A DNA stretch of 50,937 nt from Myxococcales bacterium (GTDB taxonomy: Bacteria > Myxococcota_A > Polyangia > Polyangiales > Polyangiaceae): NCBI GenBank assembly GCA_012514535.1, contig JAAZAA010000255.1, positions 1 through 50,937 on the forward strand. The letters are read 5' to 3'. The position numbers and the translations under genes were made by a program. Shown piece after piece: positions 12,852 to 19,825 of this stretch (positions are counted from its first letter, which is position 1; every line of letters begins with the position of its first letter). The notes under the pieces are model-generated. The model had not been told where the DNA came from and did no database searches. It was given only the letters and a program-made list of their open reading frames with translations.

Positions 12852-13529
12852 TCAGTGCCCCCGCTCGCGATCGATCCCCGGGAAGGTGGGATCGCCCGGC
12901 TCGTGGCGTGGGTTGGCGCTCTCGTGCTTGCCGTCGCGGCCCGGGATCGAGAGGAGCAAGTCCTTCTCGTAGATGAACTGATCCCGCGAGTCGTAGGGTG
13001 CCGGGTGCATCCCCGTGTCCATGCGGATCGCGTCGCAGGGGCACGCCTCCACGCAGAAGCCGCAGAAGATGCAGCGCAGCTCGTCGATGACGAAGCGCTT
13101 GGGATACTTCTCGTAGCCGCCGCGCTTCGGGTCGTCGCCGTAATCCGCCGGCTCGATGTAGATGCACTGGGCCGGGCACGCCGTCGAGCAGCACAGGCAC
13201 GCGACGCAGCGCGGCGAACCATCCTCGCGGGTGGTCAGCCGGTGCACGCCCCGGAAGCGCTCCGCGTACGGGCGGCGCTGCTCCGGATAGGAGATCGTGT
13301 TGATGCCGTCGTCGATGCTCTCGAGCACGGGATCGTTGCGCTGATCCAGCGCCATCTCCTTCGTGTTCTTGAAGAAGTGGCTCAGCGTGATCCCGATGCC
13401 CCGGATGACCTCCGGGATGTAGCTCTGAACAGCGACGTCGCGCTGCGGTCGCTTCACGACCTTGCCGCGGACCCGGTTCGGTCCCAAACCCTCGACGATC
13501 TCGGCCGGCGCAGTTAGCTGGGATGTCAT
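12852..13529 (-). CDS. nuoI: NADH-quinone oxidoreductase subunit I
   Basis: Ferredoxin-like peripheral-arm subunit that passes electrons through clusters N6a and N6b toward quinone. The ATG at 13527-13529 gives 225 aa. Two [4Fe-4S] motifs are complete: CVACLCCSTACPAQC (CxxCxxCxxxCP with an extra Cys) and CIFCGFCVEACPCDA. It begins two bases after the nuoH stop, so the two are coupled. A longer open frame to 13808 exists, but it overlaps nuoH and lacks family similarity. gatB follows after 28 bp. Confidence 0.97.
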   Translation of the reverse strand: MTSQLTAPAEIVEGLGPNRVRGKVVKRPQRDVAVQSYIPEVIRGIGITLSHFFKNTKEMALDQRNDPVLESIDDGINTISYPEQRRPYAERFRGVHRLTTREDGSPRCVACLCCSTACPAQCIYIEPADYGDDPKRGGYEKYPKRFVIDELRCIFCGFCVEACPCDAIRMDTGMHPAPYDSRDQFIYEKDLLLSIPGRDGKHESANPRHEPGDPTFPGIDRERGH

Positions 13530-13531
13530 CT

Positions 13532-15298
13532 TCAAGCCTCCATCTTCGCGGTGCGGGTGCCGCCCATTGCCTCCGCGTAGCGGGCCGCGGTGGACACCAC
13601 CAAGCGGTCCTTCTGACGCGGGAGGAGCAGGAACACGATCGCAGCGACGCCTGCCGCCATCCCCGCTCCGGCCAAGAACACCATCGTCCAGTCGCCGGCG
13701 ACCTCGAGACCGCGCACCGTCGCCGGGCTCGCGGAGTCGATCGCCAACATGATGATGGCGGTCGCCATGACGTTCACCAAGGAAGCCGGCAGCATCTTCC
13801 GCCAGCACAGGCGCATGAGCTGGTCGTAGCGGAAGCGCGGCAGCGTCCAGCGGATCGTCACCTGGAGCAACGCCAACGTCAGCACCTTGCCGATGAAGCC
13901 GAGAGCGCTGATCGCGAGCACCGCGCCCGGCGCCAGCGCCGCCTCGAAGTAGACGGTCTCACCGACGGCCACCCGGATCCCGTCCGCCGTGACGAAGGGC
14001 AGGTGCCAGCCACCGAGGAACACGGCGGCCATGAGGGTGCTCCCGGTCACCACGGCGATGAACTCCGAGAAGAAGAACATCGAGAACTTCATCCCCGAGT
14101 ACTCGGTGAAGTAGCCGGCGACGACCTCGCTCTCCCCCTCCGGGATATCGAAGGGGATCCGCTTCGACTCGGCGACGCTCGCCGCGAAGAAGAGGAAGAA
14201 GGCGAACGGTTGAGCGAACAGGCCCCAGGTGTGCTCCGCCTGCCAGCGGACCATCTCGTCCACCCGCACGGTGCCGTACACCATCAGGGCGCCGATCACG
14301 GTCAGCCCGAGGGTGACCTCGTAGGAGACCATCTGGCTCGCGGCGCGCATGCCACCGAGCAAGCTGTACTTGTTGTCGCTCGCCCAGCCCGCCAGGGCCG
14401 CACCCACGATGCCCGTCCCGGCGATCGCGAAGTAGTACAGGATGCCGACGTTCAGATCGGCCACCTGCAGGCTCAAGCGCGCGCTCTCGCACACGCCTCC
14501 GGCCGCCTCGACACCCTGGAAGGCGCCGAAATCGATGCCCCCCGTCTCGGTCGAGCCGAAGCACAGCGCCGGCCCGAAGGGCACGATCGCCAGCAACACC
14601 AGCGCGGGGAAGAACGAGATGAAGGGCGCGAGGTTGAACAGGAACTTGTCCGCGTTCGGGGGCACGAAGTCCCCCTTGAAGACGGTCTTCAGGCCGTCCG
14701 CCGCGGGGTGAAGCAGACCGATGAGGCGGATACGAACGAACCGCTCCTTGCCGACGGACAGGGCCACGTAGGCGGCGCCGCCCACGATCGAGAACACGAG
14801 CAGCGACACGCCTGCGCGGAACAGGACCGTGCGGACCTCGGCGGTGTCCACGAGCAACCCGACGGCCAGCGTGACCAGGTGGAGCACCAGGCCCAAACCG
14901 ACGATCGAGCGCGGCGTCCCCAGAGACTGAATGAAGGCGTCGAAGCTGTTCTCCGGCCCGCGGCGCCCCACCACGCGCGCGATGCACGCGGTGGTGAACC
15001 AGAGCATGAAGATGGCCGCCTGGAAGGCGACCATGCCCCAGCCCTCCTCCGGCGCCTCGTCGGCGCCCGAGAACGCGAGGTACCCGATGGCCGCTGCGGC
15101 GCCCAGGGCAGGCCCGAGGGCTCCCATCGCCGCGATCGGACCCGGTACCGGGATGCCTGCGCGGTTGGGGCCGACGCAGTCCTGGATCATGCCGCGCATA
15201 CGACGCTCGACCCAGGTCAGGATCACGCCCACGTTCATGGCGAACATCGCCACGGCGAAGGCCTTGATGAAGTAGACGAGGAACATTTCGAGGGTCAC
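13532..15298 (-). CDS. nuoH: NADH-quinone oxidoreductase subunit H with large internal insertion
   Basis: Membrane-arm subunit that forms most of the quinone chamber of complex I. The start is GTG in a GTGA overlap with nuoG. Core motifs are WVERRMRGMIQDCVGPNRAG (29-48), then LLHPAADGLKTVFKGDFVPPNADK (195-218), LAPFISF, the quinone-loop ESKRIPFDIPEGESEVVAG (377-395) and EYSGMKFSMFF. At 588 aa it is far longer than the usual 320-430. The excess is mainly residues about 53-190, inserted between GPNRAG and LLHPAADG, which are nearly adjacent in ordinary NuoH. That block contains about four hydrophobic helices (56-77, 88-110, 129-150, 158-182), an even number, so the topology of the rest is kept. 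An extra helix pair may also lie near the C terminus (about 505-520 and 536-560). Confidence 0.95.
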   Translation of the reverse strand: MTLEMFLVYFIKAFAVAMFAMNVGVILTWVERRMRGMIQDCVGPNRAGIPVPGPIAAMGALGPALGAAAAIGYLAFSGADEAPEEGWGMVAFQAAIFMLWFTTACIARVVGRRGPENSFDAFIQSLGTPRSIVGLGLVLHLVTLAVGLLVDTAEVRTVLFRAGVSLLVFSIVGGAAYVALSVGKERFVRIRLIGLLHPAADGLKTVFKGDFVPPNADKFLFNLAPFISFFPALVLLAIVPFGPALCFGSTETGGIDFGAFQGVEAAGGVCESARLSLQVADLNVGILYYFAIAGTGIVGAALAGWASDNKYSLLGGMRAASQMVSYEVTLGLTVIGALMVYGTVRVDEMVRWQAEHTWGLFAQPFAFFLFFAASVAESKRIPFDIPEGESEVVAGYFTEYSGMKFSMFFFSEFIAVVTGSTLMAAVFLGGWHLPFVTADGIRVAVGETVYFEAALAPGAVLAISALGFIGKVLTLALLQVTIRWTLPRFRYDQLMRLCWRKMLPASLVNVMATAIIMLAIDSASPATVRGLEVAGDWTMVFLAGAGMAAGVAAIVFLLLPRQKDRLVVSTAARYAEAMGGTRTAKMEA

Positions 15299-16893
15299 GC
15301 CGTTGCTCCTGCTTCCTGCACAGCAGCGCCGCTGCGCTCCTGGGGGGCCAGTGCCGCCTGCACGTCGGCCACCCTCTTGTAGCCGAGGTCATGACCCAGC
15401 CGTGAGGCGAGCCCGGCGACGAGCTTCCACGCGGGTTGGGACTGCCCCTGGGGACGAACGGCACGCTCGCTCAGCTGGGCGATGCCGTCTCGGTTGACGA
15501 AGGTGCCGTCGCACTCCGCCCAGCTCGACGCGGGCAGCACCACTCGCGCGGCCTTGACGAAGGGCCCCTGGTGGGTCGCGATGGTCACGAGGGACTCGAT
15601 CTTGGAGAGGGCCGAGGCTCGGTCCGGCAGCTCCGCGTCCGAGCCGAGCGCGAGGACCGTCCGCAGGTTCCCCTGCTCCGCCAGCGCGGCGAAGTCCTTG
15701 AAGGATCCCGGGGTCTGCAGGCCGCACAGGCCGATGACGCCCGTCCGGTTCGGGTTCTTGTCCTCGCTCCGCAGGATGTCGTCCCCTTCCCCTTCGGGAC
15801 GACCGCTCAGGAACAGCCGGGTCACCCCCAGGCGCTGCGCCAGCTGCAGCAGCGCAAAGTTGTCCTCGTTGGAGTGCTGAGCGCTGAGCACGACGGCCGA
15901 CGTATTCGGGTCGATCTTGCGACAGGCGTCCGCCGCCGCGTCGAGGCCAGCGTCCACCGCGACCTGCTTCCCACCTGCCTGCGCGGCCAGGACACGCCCC
16001 GTGTGGATGCGACGGTAGTCGAGCATGCCCTCGTCGCACATCCAGAACTTGTTGACGCGCTCGTTGTCCCGCGGCCGGTAGCGATACACGGTCTGGTTAC
16101 GGGGATCGAAGTCCGTGTAGGAGTTGCAGCCCGTGGCGCAGCCGACGCACACCGAGCGCACCGAGCGCAGGAACCACACCCGCGCCTTGAACCGGAAGTC
16201 CTTCGCCGTGAGCGCGCCCACGGGACAGACGTACTCGGTCATCAGGGTGTAGGCGTGATCGAGCTGCCGCCCTGGCGCCAGCACGATCTCGCTGAGGTTG
16301 CCACGCTCGCGCTTGTCGAGAACGTGGTCACCGACGACCTCGTCACAGAAGCGCACGCAGCGGGTGCACACGATGCACCGCTCCGCGTCGTACACGATCG
16401 TGGGCCCGAAGCTCACCGCCTTCGGCTTGTGGACGATCTCGTCCCGCATGCGCTTCTTGTTGGCGCCGTGGCTGAGCCAGTAATCCTGCAGGCGGCACTC
16501 GCCCGCCTGATCGCAGATGGGGCAGTCCACCGGGTGATTGAGCAGCAACAGCTCCTGCACGGCCGCCCGCGCCTCCGCCACGTGCTCGGAGGTCTGGCTC
16601 TTCACCTCCATGCCCTCCGTGAGGGGCTGCTGGCACGCAGGCACGAGCTTCGGCTTCTTCGTCTTGACGTACTCGCCGGTCTTGGCGTCGTAGCGCAGGA
16701 CGTCCAGGAGGAGCGGGCCGCGGCCCGGCGGCGGCCCGAGCTCGACGAGGCACATCCGGCAGTTGGCCGCGACGCTGAGGCCGGGGTGCCAGCAGTAGTG
16801 CGGGATGTCCACGCCCGCGCGGTGCGCAGCCTGGATGATGGTGTCTCCGGGCTGGAATTCGATGTCCCGGTCGTCGAGCTTGAAGGTCGGCAT
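15295..16893 (-). CDS. nuoG: NADH-quinone oxidoreductase subunit G
   Basis: Peripheral-arm iron-sulfur subunit. All four cluster sites can be read in the 532-aa product: 2Fe-2S N1b (Cys34, Cys45, Cys48, Cys87), N5 (His120, Cys124, Cys127, Cys133), N4 (Cys173, Cys176, Cys179, Cys223) and the off-pathway N7 (Cys249, Cys252, Cys256, Cys286), which only some bacteria keep. The molybdopterin-type C-terminal region is short, so the protein is smaller than the 700-900 aa typical of enteric NuoG. It follows nuoD by 67 bp and overlaps the nuoH start by 4 nt. nuoE and nuoF, which usually precede nuoG, are absent. Confidence 0.96.
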   Translation of the reverse strand: MPTFKLDDRDIEFQPGDTIIQAAHRAGVDIPHYCWHPGLSVAANCRMCLVELGPPPGRGPLLLDVLRYDAKTGEYVKTKKPKLVPACQQPLTEGMEVKSQTSEHVAEARAAVQELLLLNHPVDCPICDQAGECRLQDYWLSHGANKKRMRDEIVHKPKAVSFGPTIVYDAERCIVCTRCVRFCDEVVGDHVLDKRERGNLSEIVLAPGRQLDHAYTLMTEYVCPVGALTAKDFRFKARVWFLRSVRSVCVGCATGCNSYTDFDPRNQTVYRYRPRDNERVNKFWMCDEGMLDYRRIHTGRVLAAQAGGKQVAVDAGLDAAADACRKIDPNTSAVVLSAQHSNEDNFALLQLAQRLGVTRLFLSGRPEGEGDDILRSEDKNPNRTGVIGLCGLQTPGSFKDFAALAEQGNLRTVLALGSDAELPDRASALSKIESLVTIATHQGPFVKAARVVLPASSWAECDGTFVNRDGIAQLSERAVRPQGQSQPAWKLVAGLASRLGHDLGYKRVADVQAALAPQERSGAAVQEAGATA

Positions 16894-16960: not shown

Positions 16961-18175
16961 TCAGCGATCGCACTCACCGCCGATCATGTTGAGGGAACCG
17001 AAGCAGGGGACCACGTCCGCCATCATCTGGCCCGTGATCACCTTCTCGAGGCCGGCGGTCACCAGGAAGCACGGCGGACGGATGCGCACCCGGTACGGGG
17101 TGCCGCTGCCATCGCTCACCAGATAGAAGCCGAGCTCACCGTTGCCCCCCTCCGTGTAGGAGTACACCTCGCCCGCCGGGAGCTTCAGGCCCTCCATCAC
17201 GATCTTGAAGTGCTGAATGGTGCCCTCGATCGTGGTGTAGACCTCGTCCTTCGGCGGGAGGATCACCCGCGGGTCGTCCACGTTGACCGGGCCCTCGTCG
17301 GGCATGCGCTCACAGCTCTGCTCGATGATCCGCGCGCTCTGCCGGATCTCCTCGATGCGCACCATGAAGCGGTCCAGGCAGTCGCTGTTGGTGCCCACGG
17401 GCACGTCGAAGTCGACTTCGCCGTACTTCAGGTACGGGTACGCCTTGCGGACGTCGTAGGGGACGCCCGCCGCGCGCAAGCACGGACCCGTCCAGCCGAG
17501 CGAGATCGCGTCCTCGGGGCTGATGTAACCGACCCCCTCGAGTCGATCGAGGAAGATCCGGTTGCCGTAGAGGAGCTTCTCGCACTCGTCGACGATCTTG
17601 AGGATCTGTCGGGTCGCCGCGAGGGTGTGCTCCTTGAAGTCCTTGGTCGGAGGCGCCGCCATGCCGCCCACTCGCCCGAAGCTGTGGGTGAGCCGAGCGC
17701 CGGTCTCCTCCTCCATCACGTCCCAGACCATCTCTCGGGCCTTGTTCATCCAGAGGAATGGAGTGAACGCCCCGAGCTCCATGGCCATGGCGCCGTCGCA
17801 GGTCAGGTGGTCGGAGATGCGGGCAAGCTCGCCCAGGATCATCCGGTACCACTGGCAGCGCTCCGGGACCTCGATGCCGAGCATCTTCTCGCAGGCCAAC
17901 GCGAAGGCCACGTTGTTCAGCATCGGCGAGACGTAGTTGCACCGATCGACGTAGGGGAACACCTGCGTCCACGTGCCACGCTCGCACATCTTCTCGAAGC
18001 CGCGGTGCAGGTACCCGACTTGCACGTCGACCCGCTCGATCGACTCACCGCGCAGCTCCATGACGCAGCGCACGGTGCCGTGCATCGCGGGGTGGGAAGG
18101 CCCCACGTTGAGCAGCATCGGCTCGGTGGGAAGCTCGACTTCCGCTTCGTCCAGAGCTAGGTCCAAAGGCTCCAT
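16961..18175 (-). CDS. nuoD: NADH-quinone oxidoreductase subunit D
   Basis: The 49-kDa-type subunit that builds the quinone-binding site together with NuoB. 404 aa, normal length, not fused to NuoC. Family signatures include LLNVGPSHPAMHGT, YLHRGFEKMCE, RCNYVSPMLNN, GELARISDHL, the stretch GRVGGMAAPP and the C-terminal GSLNMIGGECDR. The quinone-site His/Tyr region is in SHPAMHGT and the following CNYVS. ATG at 18173-18175, 30 bp after the nuoC stop. Confidence 0.98.
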   Translation of the reverse strand: MEPLDLALDEAEVELPTEPMLLNVGPSHPAMHGTVRCVMELRGESIERVDVQVGYLHRGFEKMCERGTWTQVFPYVDRCNYVSPMLNNVAFALACEKMLGIEVPERCQWYRMILGELARISDHLTCDGAMAMELGAFTPFLWMNKAREMVWDVMEEETGARLTHSFGRVGGMAAPPTKDFKEHTLAATRQILKIVDECEKLLYGNRIFLDRLEGVGYISPEDAISLGWTGPCLRAAGVPYDVRKAYPYLKYGEVDFDVPVGTNSDCLDRFMVRIEEIRQSARIIEQSCERMPDEGPVNVDDPRVILPPKDEVYTTIEGTIQHFKIVMEGLKLPAGEVYSYTEGGNGELGFYLVSDGSGTPYRVRIRPPCFLVTAGLEKVITGQMMADVVPCFGSLNMIGGECDR

Positions 18176-18205
18176 GTTCGTCGTTCTCGAGGCTCGTGGC
18201 CGTGG

Positions 18206-18784
18206 TCAGGATTCGTCTTGGGGGCGGAGGTGGGTCTGGCGCCCGAAGGCCATGCCCTCGTCGGGGCCGAACGGGGGCAACTTCTCGATGTTCTCGACCT
18301 CGCGGTAGGCCACCAGCGGCTGGATTTCGTCCGCGGGGTAGTCCTTGCGCAGCGGGTGCCCGATGAACTCCGGGTAGAGCAGGATGCGACGCAGATCCGG
18401 GTGCCCCACGAAGCGCACTCCGAGCAGATCCCAGCACTCTCGCTCGAGCCAGTTGGCGCTCGCCCACAGGTCGGTGAGGGTGGCAATCTCGACGTTCTCT
18501 CCCTCCTCGTCCCCGACCCGCGACTTGAGCCGCAGACGATGCCCCAGGGTGAGGGAGCAGAGATGGGTCACCACCTCGAAGCGCGGCTCCTGATCGGGGA
18601 AGTCCACGGCGGTGAGGTCCATGAGCATGTTCATGGCCGCGCGCGGGTCGTCCCGGAGGAACTGGTGGATGGCGTGCCAGCTGTCCGGCTTCACCACCAG
18701 GGTCTCGTCACCGTGCTGCGAGTGGCTCGCGAGCACGGCCCCTGGAAACTGCTGCTTGACGAGATCGATGAGTGCTTGGGCCAT
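18206..18784 (-). CDS. nuoC: NADH-quinone oxidoreductase subunit C
   Basis: The 30-kDa-type subunit of the peripheral arm; structural, no cofactor. The 192-aa product shows MNMLMDLTAVDFPDQEPRF, HRLRLKSRV and the family signature ERECWDLLGVRFVGHPDLRRILL...GHPLRKDYP near residues 132-165. It is a separate gene from nuoD, as in most non-enteric bacteria. It begins 46 bp after the nuoB stop. Confidence 0.97.
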   Translation of the reverse strand: MAQALIDLVKQQFPGAVLASHSQHGDETLVVKPDSWHAIHQFLRDDPRAAMNMLMDLTAVDFPDQEPRFEVVTHLCSLTLGHRLRLKSRVGDEEGENVEIATLTDLWASANWLERECWDLLGVRFVGHPDLRRILLYPEFIGHPLRKDYPADEIQPLVAYREVENIEKLPPFGPDEGMAFGRQTHLRPQDES

Positions 18785-18830
18785 CGCTGCTTGAGGACGA
18801 AGGTCGAGGATCGGGACGAGGTGAAGCCGC

Positions 18831-19478
18831 TCAGACGGAGTCCTTGCGGCGAAGCTGGACGAGCCCGAGGGTCTGATCCGTCGCCGGATCCCGGCGCGGC
18901 TTGACGATGCCGGGGGTTCGATCGCCGCGCTGGATCTTGTCCTGCAGCAGCATCAACCCATCCAGCACCCCCTCCGGTCGAGGCGGACACCCCGGCACGT
19001 AGACGTCGCACGGGATGATCTTGTCGATCCCCGCCACGCAGGCGTAGTTGTCGTAGAAGCCGCCGCAGGACGCGCAGGTTCCGAAGGCCAGCACGAACTT
19101 CGGCTCCATCATCTGCTCGTAGATCCGCTTGAGCACCGGCGCCTGGCGCTGGGTGATCGTGCCGACGACCCACAGCAGGTCGCTCTGGCGCGGCGAGAAG
19201 CGCGGCGCCTCGCTGCCGAAGCGCGAGAAGTCGAAGCGCGGCCCGGACACGCTCATGAACTCCATGCCGCAGCACGCGGTCACGAAGGGATACATGAACA
19301 GCGAGTACTTCTGCGCCCAGGACAACATGTCCTTCAGGCGCGTCGTGGCGAAGCCGGCGCCTTCGCCCGCTTCCATCGTGGCGCTGCGGAGGGCGCCCTG
19401 GGGCGTCCCGGCCGTCGAGCCCCCGCCCGCGGCGGGAGACTGCAGATGTGCCCCGTGAGGTCGACTCAGCTCTCCCAT
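18831..19478 (-). CDS. nuoB: NADH-quinone oxidoreductase subunit B
   Basis: Carries cluster N2, the last electron donor to quinone. The ligands are visible as the tandem Cys69/Cys70 in ACCGMEFM, Cys135 in FGTCASCGG and Cys164 in VYVPGCPPRPEG. The start is chosen at the ATG at 19476-19478, overlapping nuoA by 13 nt, giving 215 aa with a low-complexity N-terminal extension of about 35 residues. An ATG at 19376 (MEAGEGAGFATTRLKD) would give a 181-aa protein closer to the family average and cannot be excluded. The extended frame to 19697 is a shadow of nuoA. Confidence 0.96.
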   Translation of the reverse strand: MGELSRPHGAHLQSPAAGGGSTAGTPQGALRSATMEAGEGAGFATTRLKDMLSWAQKYSLFMYPFVTACCGMEFMSVSGPRFDFSRFGSEAPRFSPRQSDLLWVVGTITQRQAPVLKRIYEQMMEPKFVLAFGTCASCGGFYDNYACVAGIDKIIPCDVYVPGCPPRPEGVLDGLMLLQDKIQRGDRTPGIVKPRRDPATDQTLGLVQLRRKDSV

Positions 19479-19825
19479 TCGAGCGCTCCCTTTCTCCAGA
19501 CGTAGACCAGTGCCACCCCGAGGGCGACGATGAAGGCTGACATGGTCGCGAAACCGACCCAGCCCAGGGACTTGAACAAGGTCGCCCACGGGTAGATGAA
19601 CACTACTTCGATGTCGAAGACGACGAAGAGGATGGCGGTCAGGTAGAACTTGACCGTCAGCTTCACGTCGCGTCCGCCCCGCGTGTCGTTGCCGCACTCG
19701 TACGGCATCGCCTGCTCGGGTCCGAGCGGCTTTCGGCCGACGAAGTGACCGAGGGTGAACATCGCACCCCCGATGACCAGGGCCACGACGAACAACAGAA
19801 ACAGGGGAAGATAGGTCTCTAGCAT
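19466..19825 (-). CDS. nuoA: NADH-quinone oxidoreductase subunit A
   Basis: Small membrane-arm subunit at the junction with the peripheral arm. The 119-aa product has three membrane helices (about 5-27, 60-83 and 89-110) and the conserved loop GPEQAMPYECGNDTRG, whose Cys lies in the quinone-cavity loop, followed by KFYLTAILFVVFDIEVVFIYPWA. It is the first gene of the nuoABCDGHI run. No clear Shine-Dalgarno precedes its ATG. A TTGACA hexamer 155 bp upstream is a likely promoter element. Confidence 0.97.
   Translation of the reverse strand: MLETYLPLFLLFVVALVIGGAMFTLGHFVGRKPLGPEQAMPYECGNDTRGGRDVKLTVKFYLTAILFVVFDIEVVFIYPWATLFKSLGWVGFATMSAFIVALGVALVYVWRKGALEWES

Follow-up and report, generated by a model that had tools for sequence, protein, structure and literature searches.

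A NuoH variant in the Polyangiaceae carrying a predicted four-helix membrane block between TM1 and amphipathic helix 1

The nuoH gene at 13532..15298, on the minus strand of a 50,937-nucleotide stretch of DNA from a member of the Polyangiaceae (the window), encodes a genuine complex I subunit of 588 aa, with a GTG start and a four-helix membrane domain built in frame. The inserted block, residues 53-186 (14741..15142; this and all features below lie on the minus strand), is predicted to form a bundle of four helices with a short strand on either side, located between TM1 and amphipathic helix 1 (AH1). By analogy with mitochondrial complex I, we tentatively read the block as a built-in heel domain that would steady TM1 and the quinone-portal helix and organise lipid there, a proposal we hold at somewhat under an even chance.

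The core of the protein conforms to the H subunit family. The NuoH protein scores 310.5 bits with Pfam NADHdh (PF00146), whose cut-off is 27, and the best stretch pairs residues 191-514 with profile positions 38-298. A PF00146 search of the whole genome gave 303 bits for nuoH and a second match of only 25-39 bits, which falls within a 672-codon frame of a different contig; because that match is weak, 13532..15298 is the genome's only clear nuoH. Among six NCBIfam NuoH equivalog models (PRK06076), the best, NF004741, scored 279.8 bits, below its curated cut-off of 305. Alignment A1, with 36 rows including other phyla, contains 39 invariant columns in the NuoH core, G43, P44, A200, D201 and K204 among them. 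The whole-protein AF2 model matches cyanobacterial NdhA (6khj_A) best, with a Z of 32.9 and an rmsd of 3.0 over 326 of 588 residues, and structure comparison also aligns the core model to the E. coli and Thermus H subunits. The window NuoH thus shares its core fold and conserved residues with NuoH/Nqo8/ND1 (E. coli 7nyh, Thermus 4hea, cyanobacterial 6khj), together with NuoG and NuoI as neighbours, and differs from the solved H subunits, beyond the block, in a longer TM2-3 loop and an extra predicted C-terminal helix.

The block interrupts this core at a single place. TM1 (residues 3-39, 15182..15292, from the AF2 model) is followed by GPNRAG (residues 43-48, 15155..15172), the final core residues ahead of the block by sequence and alignment A1, and the core returns at LLHPAADGLK (residues 195-204, 14687..14716), the start of AH1, which AF2 places at residues 196-208. 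About 137 extra residues (53-190) lie between the two motifs. A phmmer alignment with the E. coli chain covers NuoH residues 6-48 and restarts at 194; the cyanobacterial chain aligns over residues 17-48 and restarts at 192. In both of these chains the AH1 motif follows GPNR/GP after just a few residues, in contrast to the ~140 of the window NuoH. Pfam, phmmer and alignment therefore agree on the earlier note's description of a 588-aa NuoH with about 140 extra residues between these motifs, and alignment with Myxococcota, E. coli and Thermus NuoH leaves the block as additional and the core intact. The reading of the block as the normal helices 2-5 accompanied by a duplicated core is ruled out: downstream of the block, AH1, TM2 and the remainder of the chain occur a single time, and known H subunits align with the core. 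At 140 residues, compared with 6-7 in 33 family members, the long TM1-TM2 loop sets the variant apart, leaving PF00146 membership unaffected.

Within the block, AF2 predicts helix A (residues 53-76, 15071..15142, also apparent in hydropathy), helix B (residues 87-113, 14960..15040), helix C (residues 129-149, 14852..14914) and helix D (residues 153-183, 14750..14842). Alignment places the invariant W101 in helix B and P130, R131, G137 and H141 in helix C. The loop joining B and C holds a further short helix (residues 118-125, or 118-125/126 across models; 14924..14947), which would be cytoplasmic judging from AF2 and the charge pattern. The bundle is bordered by a neck entry strand (IPVP, residues 49-52, 15143..15154) and a neck exit strand (residues 187-190, 14729..14740), which presumably pair with each other. 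Two models, one of the whole NuoH (pLDDT 75.2, pTM 0.68, middling confidence, with the block covered by six sequences) and one of residues 45-195 alone (pLDDT 72.6, six sequences), return the same order of strand, A, B, short helix, C, D and strand; in the whole-protein model, residues 41-50 and 191-200 beside the neck average a pLDDT of 55. With hydropathy thresholds of 1.2 and 1.5 alike, the window's block shows four segments; across the 57 family blocks, four segments appear in 57/57 at 1.2 and in 44/57 at 1.5. These predictions bear out the earlier suggestion of roughly four hydrophobic helices.

The B-C loop has the highest density of lysine and arginine (4.4 per 25 residues, compared with 1.7 per 15.5 in the A-B loop and 1.2 per 16.8 in the C-D loop), as would fit a cytoplasmic B-C loop. 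The further claim that an even number of helices preserves downstream topology is likewise supported at the level of sequence: four helices would leave the orientation of the following chain unchanged, and the loop charges fit. In block-less family NuoH proteins, these flanks are bridged by only a few residues, for example IKIGKF, which read as the same two strands joined by a tight turn. Because these relatives have a short turn there, the block seems grafted onto the tip of a pre-existing hairpin, a placement that could let it be added without disturbing the core. Three NuoH proteins from other families of the phylum (L161, L176 and L179) have loops of 15-20 residues at the site that start with IPVP or IPIP, like several of the inserts.

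Two other features of the window NuoH belong to the family at large. The C-terminal extension (residues 521-588, 13535..13738), containing an extra predicted helix at 525-558 in the AF2 model, is family-typical and independent of the block: family NuoH proteins, with or without the block, have a median of 69 residues past position 520, compared with 2-4 in the order's other families. The TM2-3 loop (window residues 243-280) has a median of 40 residues in block-bearing and 49 in block-less family NuoH, 27-28 elsewhere in the order, and 5-14 residues in the four non-myxobacterial rows measured. The C-terminal extension and the longer TM2-3 loop are family NuoH traits untied to the block.

The distribution of the block was traced in 213 of 229 NuoH rows, following removal of a duplicate (L001), partial or poor rows (L022, L226, L112 and L117) and rows with identical last 200 residues. 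Insert length was taken as the residues between query positions 49 and 189, and five NuoH-like proteins of a second, more distant kind (L059-L063) were excluded from group counts. Among 91 aligned NuoH proteins of the window's family, the Polyangiaceae, 57 have 137-153 residues at the site, 33 have 6-7 and one has 63; five of 103 family genomes gave no NuoH match at E 1e-80. The other families of the order (31 NuoH) comprise 14 proteins with 74-97 residues, one with 183 and 16 with 6. The block is missing from the 33 short-loop family proteins, from all 39 NuoH examined in the rest of the phylum, which have 2-20 residues at the site (39 of 54 matching genomes, sampled as 7/7 from the class and 32/47 from the phylum), and from all 47 examined from other phyla, which have a single residue there. 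One row, L212 (G107), changes reading frame within NuoH at about query residue 402, reflecting a frameshift or a sequencing error.

That the block itself might be a sequencing, assembly or gene-prediction artefact, a reading the earlier note had left standing, is so improbable as to be negligible. Of 108 family genomes, 64 contain a match to a block profile (E <= 0.01), always inside the NuoH match (61 located by coordinates and three by blastp), and the block occurs in the single-contig genomes G033, G095, G117, G118 and G119. GC content by codon position in the block is 0.70/0.51/0.93, which is coding-like, and third-position GC is nearly equal in block (0.93) and core (0.94). Presence in single-contig genomes, coding-like composition and purifying selection in 12/16 close pairs (dN/dS <= 0.55) together establish the block as real and rule the artefact out.

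The same site has received other inserts. Outside the family, NuoH proteins of the order carry two-helix inserts of 74-97 residues (L041, L051, L053-L056, L058, L139, L146-L148 and L151-L153). Hydropathy of the 15 short inserts gives two segments in 15/15 at threshold 1.2 and in 11/15 at 1.5, and their sole invariant column is a proline at position 4, within a start common with the block. Profile comparison between the two-helix inserts and the four-helix block gave no significant relation (E 0.05-0.41) and did not support a common origin. For five closely related inserts of family f5, comparison of the C-terminal half with the block by simple shuffles gives z values of 3.0-4.6 in L051, L147 and L148 and of 2.0 and 2.8 in the two others, and the N-terminal half shows no likeness (z 0.0-1.0), so that shared ancestry may apply to some of these. 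Inside the window's family, the 63-residue insert of L039 (G018) resembles helices A and D (shuffle z 4.9 and 4.5) and is without the B-C pair that bears the invariant motif; from its sequence, it reads as a natural half-version of the block. L036 (G058) carries 183 residues with five hydrophobic segments at both thresholds; by eye, part of this insert resembles the one of 88 residues in L139, from the same family, with ~95 further residues ahead. At the laxer threshold an even number of helices holds by hydropathy for the four- and two-helix inserts, and the five segments of L036 do not bear it out as a rule for the site.

A quick order-wide tree of core residues (137 rows), in which the outgroup rows do not fall on one side of a branch and 3/8 are misplaced, requires at least nine changes among four insert states. 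The two-helix state needs seven changes on this tree, six of them forced, and the four-helix state needs two; a single four-helix origin followed by later loss is possible, because well-supported branches force only one of these. A more careful tree, built on 60 rows, agrees broadly, with eight changes among three states. The insertion site is a hot spot in the order.

This turnover bears on the main rival of the heel scaffold, a tolerated decoration, in which a lipid-facing hairpin tip accepts helices and the block, once inserted, persists through local structural dependence (a neutral ratchet) with little effect on the enzyme. We regard this as possible though on the unlikely side. Inserts of 63-97, 137-153 and 183 residues across lineages, the repeated changes of state and the 33 block-less NuoH proteins within the family are all what it would expect. 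Complex I works without the block, because 33/91 family NuoH have none, and these same proteins count against an essential role.

Sequence constraint within the block points partly the other way. Mean pairwise identity over the 57 sequences is 31% in the block versus 67% in the core, and against this divergence W101, R131 and G137 are invariant (57/57), P130 is conserved in 98%, P53, P64 and G115 in 96%, H141 in 93% and Y178 in 91%. Nine positions conserved at 91-100% exceed what neutral filler would need. The dN/dS of the block is higher than that of the core in all 16 close pairs computed (16 of 17 requested pairs, one being absent from the set); 12 pairs fall at 0.04-0.55, and the four others, all within genus g19, at 0.91-1.19. 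The block is therefore translated and kept, yet looser than the core. The faster pace in 16/16 pairs, near-neutral in four, agrees with decoration, and the low ratios in the other 12 speak against it, with the qualification that folding alone could demand some conservation.

Searches for relatives of the block beyond NuoH, which the earlier note had proposed as a check, returned no clear one. No standalone homologue was found by profile search in the 108 family genomes, and two block-profile matches in 183 order genomes, at E about 0.008, are not recognised as NuoH by blastp; these searches scored up to 37 and 22 of the initial candidates per genome, so that a remote copy may escape. The block profile had no match among PDB chains at E <= 5, and no Pfam family was found for it with 52 members searched. 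CPP1-like and 7tm_3 Pfam matches, seen in 2/52 members each and reaching E 1e-4, were discounted as noise from membrane composition, since block members do not share them. Foldseek with the block model, built on six sequences, gave 0 matches at E <= 0.001, and the best structure comparison (Z 7.3, to the vinculin tail helical bundle) is at noise level, with nothing above unrelated bundles. An internal duplication of A-B as C-D is unsupported (hhalign E 0.19-0.21).

One faint signal touches the idea that the block forms a quinone or lipid antechamber, a second menaquinone site feeding the portal. PF02300 (fumarate reductase C) matches 5/52 block members weakly (best E 0.045) and reaches 12.6 bits with the window's block, below its cut-off of 24.2; SdhC compares with the block model at Z 5.2 and rmsd 7.1, a noise-level result. 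The antechamber would also suit the placement between TM1 and AH1, the putative membrane histidine H141 and the invariant W and R. The PF02300 and SdhC matches are nevertheless all chance-level, H141 is replaced by Q in the near relative L065, and block-less relatives share the operon neighbours and the core, so that we consider an antechamber quite improbable.

The gene neighbourhood is that of a nuo cluster. Upstream lies a NuoG-like subunit of 532 aa (15295..16893, Pfam and synteny) that overlaps nuoH, preceded in the same cluster by the NuoD, NuoC, NuoB and NuoA genes (16961..19825, approximate starts). Downstream, a NuoI-like 4Fe-4S subunit (12852..13529, synteny, start inferred) follows the end of nuoH after a two-base gap that depends on this start. 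Three antiporter-type (PF00361) genes lie together on contig C259, and the arrangement fits the split clusters nuoIHGDBA and nuoEFJKLMN that excerpts of PMC2330069 describe in Anaeromyxobacter and relatives. The NuoG-like protein, which matches the molybdopterin domain over a short stretch, compares with a 908-aa NuoG in E. coli, as given in an excerpt of PMC8357420. Across the family, block-bearing loci with enough sequence have NuoG upstream in 47/47 and NuoI downstream in 53/55; two-helix loci of other families have them in 14/14 and 13/13, and the 38 block-less family rows, including the distant paralogues L059-L063, in 31/35 and 30/35.

The block may instead serve as a docking site for another membrane complex, as in a respiratory supercomplex, or for a lineage-specific subunit, an idea we think unlikely. 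It would draw on the extra membrane surface at the heel and on the conserved B-C loop, which probably faces the cytoplasm. Its partner gene, however, is hypothetical, and the block state rests on few evolutionary events, so co-occurrence has little power.

The heel reading starts from where the block is placed. In complex I, the quinone entrance that opens towards the lipid is lined by TM1 and AH1. Lineage novelty in complex I usually takes the form of separate accessory subunits or terminal extensions. Excerpts of PMC8357420 and PMC8762328 place AH1 within the loop that joins TM1 to TM2 and assign the entry of the tunnel to ND1, and the former describes TM1 and part of the TM1-TM2 loop of E. 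coli NuoH as invisible in density, with AH1 protruding into the nanodisc. The earlier note's claim that the block adjoins the quinone entry stands in respect of its place between TM1 and AH1; the lining of the portal by AH1 is general background to it. The functions that the note suggested for the block, such as shielding the chamber, binding another quinone or lipid, or recruiting a subunit, are hypothetical. According to excerpted text of PMC8762328, the mitochondrial subunits NDUFA1, NDUFA3 and NDUFA13 pack onto ND1 at the heel, some trapping lipid, and roles in assembly and lipid have been proposed for them. They resemble the block in being membrane helices and differ in being separate single-helix eukaryotic proteins, in contrast to four helices within a core chain, so the likeness is one of analogy only. 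The same applies to Euglena NDUEG6, likewise a lineage-specific helix beside the ND1 quinone entrance, which excerpts of PMC10884005 present as a separate subunit with one sigmoid helix. The Euglena ND1 entry, PDB 8iuf_N1, has 670 aa, of which only residues 548-619 aligned to the window NuoH. Among the matches listed for open-licence PMC literature on NuoH insertions or myxobacterial complex I, titles and abstract openings contained no report of the block.

As a heel domain, the block would pack next to TM1, alongside the quinone-portal helix and the lipid bilayer, hold TM1 and AH1 in place and arrange lipid, possibly a quinone tail, at the portal, acting in cis much as the separate single-helix heel subunits of mitochondria may do. 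Its structural or contact core would be the B-C loop (G115, N118, P130 and R131) together with W101 and H141 of the adjoining helices.

In many members of this family of soil bacteria, an entire membrane domain has been added to a core subunit of complex I beside the presumed quinone entry, a part that textbook complex I is without; the block with its W/PR/G/H motif is absent from the solved H subunits aligned. More broadly, one order may graft two, four or more helices repeatedly at the portal hairpin tip, tuning quinone or lipid access in cis, with the four-helix version a conserved portal domain of regulatory character bearing its own W/PR/G/H motif, although we rate this wider picture as doubtful. 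The natural zero-, two- and four-helix versions of the same gene, among the same neighbours, form a ready comparative series, which can probe how quinone and lipid access is controlled at the portal and whether extra scaffolding is needed at the heel.
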